From Fulvimarina pelagi HTCC2506 (GTDB lineage: Bacteria > Pseudomonadota > Alphaproteobacteria > Rhizobiales > Rhizobiaceae), in assembly GCF_000153705.1 (NCBI RefSeq), contig NZ_DS022272.1:3050798-3114797 (forward strand): a DNA stretch of 64,000 bases, in the 5' to 3' direction. Made by a program: the position numbers and the translations under genes. The notes beneath the pieces are model-generated. The model made no database searches, had not been told where the DNA came from, and was given only the letters and a program-made list of their open reading frames with translations. The stretch's first letter is position 1, and every line of letters begins with the position of its first letter. Shown here piece by piece: positions 39,855-44,401 of this stretch.

Positions 39855-40058
39855 CTAATTTCGCGGACCGTCGATCCGGCTTGGCGCGATCGGATCGGAA
39901 GCGGGGAAAGTCTCATCGAGAGCCTCGTCGATCTCGCTTTCACTGTAGTCTTTACCGCGCTTTCGGGCGGCGCGCTTATCTTCGGCCTTCCCGAATTTCC
40001 TCTCGCGCGGGGGCGGGTTCATGGCGTCGTCGAATGCGGAGTCATCTTTGGCTCGCAT
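39855..40058 (-). CDS. Small hydrophilic protein (DEALDETFPASDP type)
   Basis: 67 residues from the ATG at 40058, which has a perfect SD (AAGGAGGTTT). The N-terminal half is basic (RERKFGKAEDKRAARKRGKD) and the C-terminal half ends IDEALDETFPASDPIAPSRIDG, a motif shared by a family of short alphaproteobacterial proteins often induced in stationary phase or stress. No known biochemical role. The longer frame to 40253 has no SD. Confidence 0.8.
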   Translation of the reverse strand: MRAKDDSAFDDAMNPPPRERKFGKAEDKRAARKRGKDYSESEIDEALDETFPASDPIAPSRIDGPRN

Positions 40059-40293
40059 CGGAAACCTCCTTTCGAGCTCGAAACACTTGCGCCCTCGCTG
40101 TCGGCGAAGGCAGCCGAACGAGGCGCAAGTGTATGACCGTTTTGCGAAAAATCCCGCAGGCTGTGTTCGGTTCCGGCTTGGCGGCGCGCAGTTATATGTG
40201 CGGATCGCGGTGATCCCGGCGTTGAACCCGCGATATCGCGCGTTTAGGCTCAAGCGAGCCGAAAGAAGTCCGAGCCGCTATCGGAGTCTCACC

Positions 40294-41367
40294 TTGCCGA
40301 CACGCCGCATCGTCCTCTCCGCAGCCTTCGCTTTCTGCGCCATGGTAATGATCGCGAAAGAGGCAACGGCGCAGGGAGTGACCGGCGACAGTTTCGTCGC
40401 CTCCGAAAGCTGCCCCGCCTTCCAGTCGATCCGCAAGGGCACCAATCCAGGCGAGGTCTCGACGGTGCAGGGCATTCAATACGAGATAATCGACGTCAAC
40501 GGAAACGATCCGACCCACTACCGCATTCGCATGCCAGAAGCTCGACCGCAGGAGCGATGGGTCGCGATGGAATGCGGCAGTCTGGCCAGTGCCTCTTCGG
40601 TTCAATTAAGCGAAAGTCCCTATGGTGATCCGCGTGGTGCAAATGCGCTCGCGGAAGCGCTTGGTGGTCCGTCTGGCAAAGCGGCGGCTACCGCACCAAG
40701 CGAAGCCACCGATCAGCAATCGCCTTCCGGCACCTATGTGCTTGCGGCCAACTGGCACCCTGCTTTCTGCGAACTGCGCCCGCGTAGCCGCGATTGCCGC
40801 TCCGGCGGCATGGAGGACGGGTTCAAGCTGCACGGCCTCTGGCCGCAGCCAAGGAACAATGAATATTGCGACGTTTCACGACGCGACATCGCCGCTGATC
40901 AGCGGGGCCAGTGGCGCGATCTTCCTGAACCCCAGATCACGATGGCGACGGAGCAGGCGCTCGCCAAAGCGATGCCGGGCATGGTCGCTGACCTTCATAA
41001 GCATGAATGGATCAAGCACGGCACCTGCTACGAGGCGGATGCGGAAGAGTATTTTACGGATTCGCTCGCCCTCGTCGAGAAGCTCAACGCCTCGCCGGTC
41101 GGCAAGCTCTTCCGCAGCAATCGCGGGCGCGAGTTGACCAGTGAAGAGGTCCGCGCCGTATTCGACGATGCGTTCGGACGAGGCGCCGGCAAGCGCGTGC
41201 TGGTTGATTGTAACGATGATGACGGACGCAGCATCATCAACGAACTACAGGTTAATCTGGAGGGCGAAATTACGCCCGAAAGCGATCTTGGCGACCTCAT
41301 CTTGAACGCCTCGACATCGCCACCGGGCTGCCGTTCAGGCATCGTCGATCGCAGCGGCAGTCAGTAG
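40294..41367 (+). CDS. Exported ribonuclease T2-family protein with N-terminal extra region
   Basis: 357 residues from a TTG at 40294 that follows CGGAG and makes a good signal peptide (RRIVLSAAFAFCAMVMI, cleavage after ATA near 26); no ATG or GTG fits as well. The catalytic sites are intact: CAS I KLHGLWPQ (His180) and CAS II HEWIKHGTC (237-245, His237, Glu238, His242). Cys in DVSRRD-flanking YCD and CFA-like pairs support disulfides. Residues 30-145 form an additional domain with its own cysteines (SESCPAF, MECGSL) that ordinary RNase T2 lacks. Likely a periplasmic or secreted scavenging nuclease. Confidence 0.9.
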   Translation: MPTRRIVLSAAFAFCAMVMIAKEATAQGVTGDSFVASESCPAFQSIRKGTNPGEVSTVQGIQYEIIDVNGNDPTHYRIRMPEARPQERWVAMECGSLASASSVQLSESPYGDPRGANALAEALGGPSGKAAATAPSEATDQQSPSGTYVLAANWHPAFCELRPRSRDCRSGGMEDGFKLHGLWPQPRNNEYCDVSRRDIAADQRGQWRDLPEPQITMATEQALAKAMPGMVADLHKHEWIKHGTCYEADAEEYFTDSLALVEKLNASPVGKLFRSNRGRELTSEEVRAVFDDAFGRGAGKRVLVDCNDDDGRSIINELQVNLEGEITPESDLGDLILNASTSPPGCRSGIVDRSGSQ

Positions 41368-41504
41368 GTAGGGCCGGCATCACTGGTTTGGTGAGAATTG
41401 TTTCAAGCTGCAAATTTAACGTGACAATCCGCATCGGAAGCTATATGGACGACGCTCACTGACCGACGGCTGTTTCAAAAAATGCCGGCCAAGCGACGGC
41501 ACGA

Positions 41505-41535
41505 AAAAAAGCCGGGTACAAGACCCGGCCTGAAA
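41505..41535 (-). terminator. Rho-independent terminator of the sRNA
   Basis: On the minus strand GCCGGGT-CTTGT-ACCCGGC (7-bp perfect stem) preceded by TTTTTCAG and followed by TTTTTTTCG. A strong T-tract exists only on this strand, which shows a transcript entering from the right. Confidence 0.85.
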
Positions 41536-41630
41536 AAGTAGGGTTCGCTGAACCCTTGGGAGGAAACAGTCGGTCCGATCGGATTGGGAGGAGGTAATCG
41601 TTTCGTCCCGACTGAACGGAAACTAGACAT
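41505..41630 (-). ncRNA. Trans-acting sRNA with anti-Shine-Dalgarno CCUCCUCCC motif (alpha-r14/cuckoo/CcsR type)
   Basis: Read on the minus strand: a 7-bp stem (CAGTCGG/CCGACTG, 41614-41608 with 41573-41567) encloses a small GATT/AATC hairpin whose loop exposes CCTCCTCCC (41594-41586). A second exposed TTTCCTCCCAA (41565-41556) follows, then a perfect hairpin GGGTTC/GAACCC (41555-41541) and a rho-independent terminator (GCCGGGT stem, 41529-41511) ending in TTTTTTT. Anti-SD motifs displayed in loops plus a terminator is the architecture of the CCUCCUCCC sRNAs described in Rhizobiales and Rhodobacter. The 5' end is a guess. A 78-codon frame on the same strand is incompatible with the terminator and is rejected. 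Confidence 0.75.
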
Positions 41631-42024
41631 TGCTGCACTGCAGCGCCATCCTCAATCTTGAAAAGCAGCCATGCGTCTTTTGCATAGCTCAATGCGATGA
41701 TAGGGCTTTTCTATCGTGCGGGCGTCGCGCACGGCATCAATGTGCAAACTGATACTCTGATTCTTTAAAATTGCAGCTGCTCGTCGACGGATCGATACTT
41801 GCTAACCCTAATTGTCGGAACCATGCGCGATAAGGCATCGCGCGTTGTTTCAGTCCATGCGAAGGTCTTAATCTTCGGTTACGGCTTGTCGGGATCCCGA
41901 TGTCTCTCGGCAAGAGAGGACAGACGGAGTCGAAGAAAGTTGTAGCGCGCGCGATATCAGGGCGCGCCGCAAGTGGTCCAGACATCGCTTCCTGCGGTGG
42001 TCGGTACAAGGATGTTGCCAGCGT

Positions 42025-43380
42025 ATGAGCGTATCGCAGTCCTACACACTTCGCGGGCAGCAGACGCGCCTCGACACAACCACCAAGATCACGCTGGCCG
42101 TTCTGGCTCTTGCCTCCGGCGTCTACACCTATCTCGGTGTGCGCGAATTGCTCGACGGCAGCGCGACGGCGGTCTTTCTCGGCGCCATCGTCTATTCCTC
42201 GGCAGTCTCCGTCGCGATCTATGCCTTCTGGTCCTATCTCATGCGGTTCATGCCGCATGTGCGCCAGCCCGGCAGCCGGCGCATGCTCTATCTCGCCATG
42301 GCGATCGGCTCCATGATGATCATTGCCATGTCGTCCTGGCTCAACGCGTCCGCACTGGCGGGCTCGGCAGCCTTGGAACAGCATCTTTCGGTGACCACCG
42401 AGGAATATCAGCTAAAGCTCAACGAGGCGCACGAGAACGCCCTCGCGGCGCAATCCCTGCTTCCCGATATCCAGCTTGCGGCCCAACGTTTTGATACGCT
42501 CGCCGGGCAGGAAGCTCGCTCCGGCTCGCTTACGGGCACCTCCGGCTCGGGCACCGTCGTCCAGCTCCTCCGGCAAATGTCGAACCAGCTCACCGGCCTC
42601 CAGAGCGAGATCCAGGCGAGCCGCACCCAGGTCGCGACGATATTCGACGAGGGCGGGGCGCGGCTCGCGGCCATGCGCCAGCTGGTGTCGAGCCAGGGGC
42701 CGGTCGCCGATCGTGCGAACGCCTTCGCCGAGGAGGCGGTCCAGCTTTCCGGGATCATCACCGGCCTCCAACAGAATTCCGTCGCACCGGCGGTCAAGCG
42801 CGCCGCCGAAGATCTTGGCCGCTCCTTCATCGCGCCGGTTGCTGATGGGGGCGACGAAGGTCTGCGCGCCCGCCAGAGCCAGGTGGTGAGCCGGGTCGAG
42901 GACGCTGTCAGAGCCCAAAGCGCACTGCTCGTCGCGGCGTCCGAGGAGATCCTCGCGCGGCCGGACGTCGAGCCATTCCGGTTCACGCCGCTGTCGGCGC
43001 CGGAGGCCGTCATTCGCTACGCCGTCGATTTTCTCCCATCTTGGGCGGGTGCGATCTCTATAGATCTCCTCCCGGCGGTTCTCATTTTCATCCTCTGCAT
43101 CGTGCAGGACGTCATACGGCGCGAGGACGGTGAGGAGATGGAGACCGGAGACATGTCGGCCGCCGATCTGATGCGCGCGATCCGCATCCAGAAACGTATT
43201 CGTACGGCAGAAGACGACTGGCAGCAGGACGCCGAGATAGAGCGGCCGCGCGAGCCCGAGCGAGCCTCCGAGCCGCGTTCCGACATGCCCGAGCCGAGAG
43301 TCGCCGGCGAAAATCGCGAAATCGTGCAGCGTAACGACCCGGCCGGGCCGACCCCTTTCCCGAAGACCGCGTCACGCTGA
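42025..43380 (+). CDS. Uncharacterised membrane protein with periplasmic coiled coil
   Basis: 451 residues. Three helices near the N-terminus (about 22-40, 50-75, 86-107), a large periplasmic or cytosolic helical region (115-330) with heptad-like pattern (EEYQLKLNEAHENALAAQ, LRQMSNQLTGLQSEIQASRTQ), a fourth helix (about 350-370, IDLLPAVLIFILCIVQDVI) and an acidic, proline-rich tail. I know similar uncharacterised proteins only as rhizobial hypotheticals. It is the first gene of a pair with a ClpP-like peptidase gene 22 bases downstream, and the SD of that gene lies in the gap, so a joint function at the membrane is likely. Confidence 0.75.
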   Translation: MSVSQSYTLRGQQTRLDTTTKITLAVLALASGVYTYLGVRELLDGSATAVFLGAIVYSSAVSVAIYAFWSYLMRFMPHVRQPGSRRMLYLAMAIGSMMIIAMSSWLNASALAGSAALEQHLSVTTEEYQLKLNEAHENALAAQSLLPDIQLAAQRFDTLAGQEARSGSLTGTSGSGTVVQLLRQMSNQLTGLQSEIQASRTQVATIFDEGGARLAAMRQLVSSQGPVADRANAFAEEAVQLSGIITGLQQNSVAPAVKRAAEDLGRSFIAPVADGGDEGLRARQSQVVSRVEDAVRAQSALLVAASEEILARPDVEPFRFTPLSAPEAVIRYAVDFLPSWAGAISIDLLPAVLIFILCIVQDVIRREDGEEMETGDMSAADLMRAIRIQKRIRTAEDDWQQDAEIERPREPERASEPRSDMPEPRVAGENREIVQRNDPAGPTPFPKTASR

Positions 43381-43402
43381 AAGGAAGCGCGAAGAAGCAA
43401 CG

Positions 43403-44401
43403 ATGATCGGCGAGGAATCCAGCCCCGGACGGCTCGAACGACTTATTCAGAAGATCCCGGAGGGCGCGGTCCTCAGATCGGTCTTCGTAACGCTGCTCGC
43501 CGTCAGCTGCGGCATCGTCTATCTAGACTGGCAGGAATTTTCCGAGGCCGAACTCGATAATGCCCGCATCGAGCGCACCGAGCCAATGCCGGTCAGACGG
43601 CCCGAGCCGGGCGATCAGGTGCGACCCTATCTTCCGAAGACCATCCCAGTTGGCCCCGATCGCGGCCAGCCGGTTCTGCCGGGCTATGACGGCCCGGTTG
43701 ATTCCGAGGCCATGACGCGACCGATGACGTTCTTCGATGCCGGTGAGGGCATCGTCTCCGGCGTCGGGCGGATCGAGATCGGCACGGCCAGCGACTTGCG
43801 CGAATTCCTTGCCGAAAGGGACCGGGTCGGGGGCGAGGTTCGCCGCCTCTTCCTCCATTCGCCCGGCGGATCGGTAGAGGACGCCCTGCAGATGGCACGT
43901 GATCTCCGGGCGGACGGCATCTCGACAGAAGTGCCCGCCGACGGATATTGCGCCTCGGCCTGTCCGCTCGTCTTCGCGGGCGGCCTGACGCGCCTTGCAG
44001 GAGCATCCTCGTGGGTAGGTCTCCATCAGGTCTATGCTGCCGAAATCCCAGGCATGCCGAACGCTCGTGACCTCGACCGCTCGATCTCGGACATTCAGCA
44101 GACGATCGCGCGCGCCCAGCAGCTTCTCGCCGATATGGGAGTCGATCCGGCGATCTGGATCAACGCGATGGAGACGCCGCCGGCGGACCTCTACGTGCTG
44201 ACGGAAGAGGAATTGATCACTTCGCGCTATGTCCGGCCATTCCCGGACGGGCCGGAATTCGTCGGCCCGCGCAGGCCGGCTGATTTCGTCCTCGAGGGCG
44301 ACCAGATTGCCTCGACCGAAGACGAGGAGACCGCAGTCCCGGACGGAAATCCGGCGCATGAGACCGCGGTCACTCCACCTTCTTCAACAGGCGAAGGATG
44401 A
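43403..44401 (+). CDS. Membrane-anchored ClpP/crotonase-fold serine peptidase-like protein (COG3904 type)
   Basis: 332 residues: N-terminal signal anchor (about 24-42), proline-rich linker (60-105), then a ClpP-like domain with the beta-strand RRLFLHSPGGSVEDALQMARDL (oxyanion-loop GGSV), nucleophile Ser185 in GYCASACPLVFAGG and catalytic His208 in WVGLHQVYA, at the spacing seen in ClpP. The two cysteines flanking Ser185 are conserved in this periplasmic family and probably form a disulfide. The acid residue of the triad is not obvious. Substrate unknown. Cotranscribed with the membrane protein upstream. Its last 32 bases overlap mgtC on the other strand. Confidence 0.8.
   Translation: MIGEESSPGRLERLIQKIPEGAVLRSVFVTLLAVSCGIVYLDWQEFSEAELDNARIERTEPMPVRRPEPGDQVRPYLPKTIPVGPDRGQPVLPGYDGPVDSEAMTRPMTFFDAGEGIVSGVGRIEIGTASDLREFLAERDRVGGEVRRLFLHSPGGSVEDALQMARDLRADGISTEVPADGYCASACPLVFAGGLTRLAGASSWVGLHQVYAAEIPGMPNARDLDRSISDIQQTIARAQQLLADMGVDPAIWINAMETPPADLYVLTEEELITSRYVRPFPDGPEFVGPRRPADFVLEGDQIASTEDEETAVPDGNPAHETAVTPPSSTGEG

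Follow-up and report, generated by a model that had tools for sequence, protein, structure and literature searches.

The window, as we call the whole stretch of 64,000 nucleotides of Fulvimarina pelagi HTCC2506 analysed here, contains a gap between an RNase T2 gene (40021-41367, plus strand) and a gene at 42025 for a membrane protein of 451 amino acids, and the question it raises is whether this gap encodes a small RNA and, if so, of which family. A preliminary description had proposed a minus-strand anti-Shine-Dalgarno RNA of the cuckoo/alpha-r14/CcsR type, convergent to the former gene and divergent from the latter, its upstream neighbour. The orientation is confirmed, and so is the kind of RNA, which has its own terminator and base pairs changed on both sides among homologues; the proposed family is not upheld. 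We think it very probable that the RNA is of AbcR type (alpha-r15 type), belonging to a divergent Aurantimonadaceae lineage that in the genera Fulvimarina, Aurantimonas and Jiella moved away from its usual site at vtlR/lsrB to one flanked by the RNase T2 gene and the membrane-protein gene. At the level of sequence this reading is founded on a conserved structure, two seeds, linkage to vtlR in sister genera, vtlR genes without the RNA in five genomes, and a conserved promoter box. The parts of the locus are as follows.

41504-41614, minus strand: probable AbcR-type sRNA of about 110 nt (fold; match of model R1 at 41504-41618, 73.4 bits)
41567-41614, minus strand: SL1, basal and inner stem (fold; 14 of 16 pairs in helices 1 and 2 changed on both sides)
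41586-41594, minus strand: aSD1, CCUCCUCCC in the SL1 loop (CUCCUCCC in 29 of 30 members)
41558-41566, minus strand: aSD2, UUUCCUCCC in the linker between SL1 and SL2 (in 29 of 30 members)
41541-41555, minus strand: SL2, GGGTTC/GAACCC (fold; five of five pairs in helices 3 and 4 changed on both sides)
41504-41531, minus strand: terminator hairpin and seven-T tract (fold)
41662-41674, minus strand: VtlR/LsrB-type box GCAT-N3-TG-N3-T, exact (consensus as given in the excerpts of PMC8844928 and PMC7486931)
41667-41689: inverted repeat AGCTATGC-N7-GCATGGCT, overlapping the VtlR/LsrB-type box
41700-41714, no strand assigned: second operator-like inverted repeat, ATAG-N7-CTAT (11 of 17 loci)

The minimum-energy fold consists of exactly three hairpins, SL1, SL2 and the terminator, at -42.4 kcal/mol (z = -2.96; one of 200 shuffles was equally good), and the motif-bearing loop, second exposed motif, perfect hairpin and terminator of the preliminary description are all present on the minus strand. 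The basal stem of SL1 pairs CAGTCGG (41614-41608) with CCGACTG (41573-41567), and CCTCCTCCC lies within its loop (41594-41586); TTTCCTCCC at 41566-41558 is unpaired and contains CCTCCC; the arms of SL2 are GGGTTC (41555-41550) and GAACCC (41546-41541); and the terminator hairpin (41530-41511) is followed by seven T (41510-41504). The RNA would be transcribed from the minus strand; a promoter scan of 41300-42100 found no sigma-70-type promoter. Just 5' of the predicted start stands a palindrome, GCTGCA-G-TGCAGC (41632-41644), which has a near copy in F. endophytica. The CCTCCTCCC motif alone proves nothing, because its counts match chance: the 64 kb contain one copy where 0.87 would be expected, and the genome has 39, fewer than the 49 of the reversed pattern. 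What lifts the RNA above chance is conservation, namely 16 other loci with the same arrangement and pairs changed on both sides.

A DNA search of 61 genomes matched eight, including the genome itself, and the RNA is present in five of the other seven. Searching with the membrane-protein gene yielded 43 named loci, and a pattern scan located the RNA in 16 of them, all from Fulvimarina, Aurantimonas or Jiella; each time it lies upstream of that gene and on the opposite strand. Model R1, built solely from the 17 membrane-protein-linked copies, was searched against 31 of the 43 loci and matched strongly in the same 16 (77.6-121 bits, against 73.4 in the window), while its weaker matches there were other-strand terminators or scattered. 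Outside the 16 named loci there are 13 further copies of the window-type RNA; the genera concerned, Fulvimarina, Aurantimonas, Jiella, Aureimonas and Consotaella, are Aurantimonadaceae. Folded singly, all 17 sequences form SL2, the terminator and an SL1 whose loop contains CUCCUCCC; in some of them additional pairs appear. The covariation in homologues to which the preliminary description pointed is found: in 30 sequences, under an alignment fitted to the structure model, which favours the structure, both partners have changed in 23 of the 31 model pairs. Two-sided cells numbered 119 against 47.1 in shuffles, with none of 500 shuffles as high, and sliding the partners by one to three columns lowered the paired cells from 88.7% to 51.3% at most. 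RNAalifold on a first MAFFT alignment recovered the basal SL1 and terminator pairs only, with weak covariation (term -0.69; three pairs changed on both sides), because the inner stems were out of register in that alignment. A word-11 blastn search of a plasmid collection gave no match, and a literature search on sRNAs or AbcR in Aurantimonadaceae, Fulvimarina and Aurantimonas found no paper on this RNA. The 451-aa gene itself (42025-44401 region) is without a Pfam or NCBIfam match and has relatives in the 43 loci; the gene after it (332 aa) has a weak ClpP-related match, below cut-off.

The family had to be established indirectly. At gathering scores Rfam finds nothing in the window, nor in the 16 fetched loci carrying the RNA. 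The highest sub-threshold score of the window is for SorX (RF02784), at 29.7 bits with a cut-off of 46.6; ar15 (RF02345) gives 26.7 bits (cut-off 40) and ar14 (RF02344), the model by which the preliminary description proposed to check its family, 20.3 bits (cut-off 58.8). Members of the group are similarly mixed below threshold (SorX, suhB, ar14, ar15 and others), and since these scores disagree, we relied on synteny, the promoter and the reciprocal search to assign the family. Among the 61 genomes searched with ar15, our genome has a single match at E <= 0.01, which is the sRNA locus. In 24 further genomes ar15 never passed its cut-off and matched weakly in five; judged by contig coordinates, the weak match in four of these is the relocated sRNA locus (F. 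endophytica, A. coralicida, A. manganoxydans and J. sonneratiae), and the fifth genome, Afifella, has two ar15 matches. In the other direction, R1 was run with strict filters over 199 genomes of the family, 127 of which match at E <= 0.05. The comparable set consists of genomes G003-G036 minus three carriers of the window-type RNA, and 13 of these have an R1 match at E <= 1e-3; the best such match is the ar15 place in 12 (G003, G006, G010, G014, G018, G020, G023, G026, G027, G032, G033 and G034), neither an ar15 nor an ar14 place in G035, and the ar14 place in none. Weaker matches in the same range of genomes (E > 1e-3) are mixed, that in G021 (E 0.0125) being ar14. Of 18 genomes chosen for their R1 matches, eight have ar15 at E <= 0.05, and the two places agree in all eight, counted as at least one ar15 place per genome being an R1 place.

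The architecture can be set beside the published families in the same way. Alpha-r14 RNAs have three hairpins that all bear the identical CCUCCUCCC, according to the excerpt of PMC10746234, whereas here one motif lies in the SL1 loop and one variant in the linker. In AbcR1 and AbcR2, aSD1 (CUCCUCCC, in the SL1 loop) and aSD2 (UUCCCCUC, between SL1 and SL2) are described as separate seeds that block translation of transporter mRNAs (PMC8844928, in part). Three stem-loops with CUCCUCCC in the first loop are what we find in 29 of 30 members; aSD2 keeps its position and reads UUUCCUCCC in 29 of 30. The preliminary description had called this second motif shortened, and it is indeed altered, only what it represents is the AbcR second seed UUCCCCUC changed to UUUCCUCCC. 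A script found UUCCCCUC in 30 of 34 ar15 loci; in L102 and L116 it falls just outside the script's window, and two loci differ. Published alpha-r15 genomes carry several copies in the portion of PMC3712013 available, against one R1 match in our genome and two in Consotaella. The genome's own ar14 copies (79.3 and 57.5 bits) form a tandem array at C4:914750-915007 (L012), which has several CTCCTCCC loops and follows a DUF1127-like frame, and R1 scores 12.8 bits on these copies (E 0.77). CcsR is characterised by motif stem-loops linked to a DUF1127 gene; the sRNA has the divergent 451-aa gene as its upstream neighbour, and the array is the cuckoo/CcsR-like element of this genome. The cuckoo/alpha-r14/CcsR assignment therefore gives way, with its three-hairpin hallmark missing, the alpha-r14 array elsewhere and the evidence favouring AbcR, a family identity indicated by the seed layout, the reciprocal R1 search and vtlR linkage in sister genera. 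The RNA is classed here as a divergent AbcR-type lineage and not as a member of RF02345 as curated, because its 26.7 bits stay below the cut-off of 40 and none of the 24 genomes passed it.

In Agrobacterium the AbcR genes follow vtlR directly, and in Sinorhizobium they are neighbours of lsrB (PMC7486931 and PMC8844928, in the sections concerned). When vtlR neighbours were located by tblastn, six of the 13 further copies proved to follow vtlR on its own strand at a distance of 75-153 nt (Consotaella salsifontis, Aureimonas leprariae, Aureimonas sp. AU4, A. jatrophae and two other genomes), and two more at 826 and 1759 nt. The other five (L207, L205, L213, L214 and L209) are not beside vtlR: the L207 copy is divergent from the membrane-protein gene, L205, L213 and L214 have an RNase T2 gene within the fetched stretch, and L209 is the second Consotaella copy. 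In the window's own genome, too, the sRNA is not beside vtlR, and no such RNA occurs within 1500 nt behind vtlR in G000, G001, G002, G022 and G024, while in a sixth relocated genome, G028, the contig end leaves 124 nt behind vtlR; each of these six has one R1 match. The simplest account is that a vtlR-linked AbcR gene was duplicated or transposed and the old copy then lost. A VtlR tree unites the 14 rows of Aurantimonadaceae type (100/99) and is silent on whether there was one move or several. Consotaella salsifontis (L209/L228, L210/L236) has two copies, one behind vtlR and one elsewhere, possibly a halfway state of the move. Four weak R1 matches, in Ahrensia and three uncultured genomes, also adjoin a vtlR-like gene. 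Other Rhizobiaceae (L215, L216, L217 and L219) have extra ar15 copies over the cut-off with no vtlR in the fetched stretch, so that AbcR genes have moved or multiplied elsewhere too.

Upstream of the RNA, the VtlR-type box stands 56 nt before the R1 model start in the window. If one mismatch is allowed, 26 of 30 members have it at -55 to -57, and 27 of 30 somewhere within 100 nt, against 11% of shuffles. By itself the box is common, with nine in the window against 5.25 expected. Among the first 31 AbcR loci it is present (at most one mismatch) in all, at -57 to -62 in 28, and six more ar15 loci have it exactly in one, with one mismatch in one and with two or three in four. With the box defined more loosely, it lies 69-72 nt from the first seed in all 17 membrane-protein-linked copies. 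The PabcR1 box is placed at -61 to -49 in the promoter section of PMC8844928, a spacing that would start the RNA at 41613, within a base of SL1, and from which we predict a 5' end at 41613-41614. The NfeR1 (alpha-r14) promoter has an LsrB site, TGCA-N6-GCAT, in the excerpt of PMC10746234, and the window matches this as well; the box therefore cannot tell AbcR and NfeR1 apart. Regulation itself is disputed, the available text of PMC7486931 giving no effect of lsrB on AbcR in S. meliloti, contrary to that of PMC8844928. In 11 of the 17 loci, against 0.5% of shuffled gaps, the interval from the RNA to the membrane-protein gene contains the second box, ATAG-N7-CTAT; it is 117-129 nt from the RNA in ten of these loci and 82 nt in the window, where it is the sole copy. 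None of the 13 further copies, L207 among them, has this box in the 300 nt upstream of it, and five loci that lack the RNA do not have it in the 600 nt upstream of the membrane-protein gene. We take the second box to resemble OxyR/LysR-type half-sites.

There is a good probability that the RNA works like AbcR, most likely repressing mRNAs for the binding proteins of ABC transporters. VtlR would activate it by way of the LysR-type box, which lies some 55 nt upstream. The loop seed aSD1 and the linker seed aSD2 would pair with Shine-Dalgarno regions, chiefly of mRNAs for ABC-transporter substrate-binding proteins, and the pairing would block ribosome entry. Hfq binding and repression of ABC-transporter mRNAs mark the AbcR family; for the present RNA the analysis covered predicted pairing. 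The altered second seed would be a fuller anti-Shine-Dalgarno sequence, suiting GGGAGGAAA-type leaders. The leader of one Peripla_BP_6 gene (C4:28079, L241) can pair with aSD2 over 17 bases with one bulge (-28.9 kcal/mol), across its Shine-Dalgarno sequence; only the antisense of the RNA itself (one place, present twice) pairs better among 7160 windows, these being sequences at hand, many chosen for CCTCCTCCC or binding-protein genes, and not a random sample. We call its product LivK-like and not LivK, because it matches Peripla_BP_6 (273.6 bits) and reaches no NCBIfam cut-off; S. meliloti AbcR1 represses livK (PMC3712013, as excerpted). Pairing is slightly better for 27 binding-protein genes (two of them under the Pfam cut-off, and with starts chosen by the analyst's own score) than for 31 window genes (aSD2, p 0.03; aSD1, p 0.10), and so is the Shine-Dalgarno sequence (p 0.04), from whose strength the difference is inseparable, so that general targeting of binding proteins does not follow. 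GGGAGGA[AG], found in four of the 27 leaders, is confounded with Shine-Dalgarno strength likewise.

Three other explanations have to be weighed against these observations. That there is no sRNA and the gap merely holds the bidirectional terminator region of the RNase T2 gene would suit the palindromic hairpin, the weak other-strand R1 matches there and the missing sigma-70-type promoter, but we think it extremely improbable given how SL1, the two seeds and the promoter box have been conserved, with two-sided changes among 30 sequences, even at loci whose fetched stretch contains no RNase T2 gene. The RNA might instead be an alpha-r14 (NfeR1/cuckoo) or CcsR RNA that has lost some of its motif hairpins, which would explain CCUCCUCCC in a stem-loop, the ar14 scores of 32.9 bits on the second Consotaella copy and 30.6 on L186, and the LsrB site that NfeR1 also has (PMC10746234, as excerpted). 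It is very improbable all the same, with 20.3 bits against a cut-off of 58.8 and the motif not in three hairpins, true ar14 copies elsewhere in the genome that R1 hardly recognises, no ar14 place among the 13 comparable R1 matches (the weaker G021 apart), and sister-genus copies linked to vtlR.

We give as little credit to a new sRNA of separate descent that converged on the AbcR layout. No Rfam cut-off is reached, the second seed differs and the place is different in most relocated genomes, as such an origin would have it; against this, the same RNA lies directly behind vtlR in six sister-genus loci, the promoter box is common to both at nearly equal distance, and the reciprocal R1 matches fall on ar15 places. 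A relocated AbcR-type RNA remains our preferred reading, and its new features are the relocation, a second seed altered from UUCCCCUC to UUUCCUCCC, and the second conserved operator-like box.

A wider interpretation is tentative, and we incline somewhat against it: that AbcR was rewired in the Aurantimonadaceae, leaving vtlR, gaining a second operator, of LysR/OxyR type (ATAG-N7-CTAT), and turning its distinct second seed into a second full anti-Shine-Dalgarno sequence, so that one RNA, perhaps tuned by redox state, represses a different selection of uptake genes, those with matching GGGAGGAAA leaders. If true, this would be an instance in which the change of an sRNA's place, input and target code can be traced. 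Rhizobia, agrobacteria and brucellae use AbcR RNAs to tune their nutrient uptake, and genomes of this branch appear to be without AbcR because the Rfam cut-offs miss the branch. An RNA that has moved and changed its second seed, and has kept the first seed and the box, offers a test of which seed sets the choice of targets, and the same branch a test of how far regulation depends on linkage to vtlR.

Among known systems, SorX (RF02784) shares with the RNA a CUCCC stretch, a hairpin and the terminator, over which it scores its 29.7 bits, but the match spans 41562-41504 only and is without SL1 and aSD1. CcsR of Rhodobacter is similar in its anti-Shine-Dalgarno stem-loops, while the DUF1127 linkage of CcsR is seen at the C4:914750-915007 array and not at the sRNA. 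NfeR1/alpha-r14/cuckoo (RF02344) has CCUCCUCCC in a stem-loop and an LsrB-type promoter site (PMC10746234, in part) in common with it, and differs in carrying the motif in three hairpins and in having its copies elsewhere in this genome. The closest likeness is to AbcR1 and AbcR2 (RF02345), which likewise have CUCCUCCC in the SL1 loop, a second anti-Shine-Dalgarno sequence between SL1 and SL2, the terminator, a VtlR/LsrB box upstream and the vtlR linkage that the same RNA has in sister genera; the RNA described here departs from them in its second seed, UUUCCUCCC and not UUCCCCUC, its single copy away from vtlR, its extra ATAG-N7-CTAT box and its score below the Rfam cut-off.
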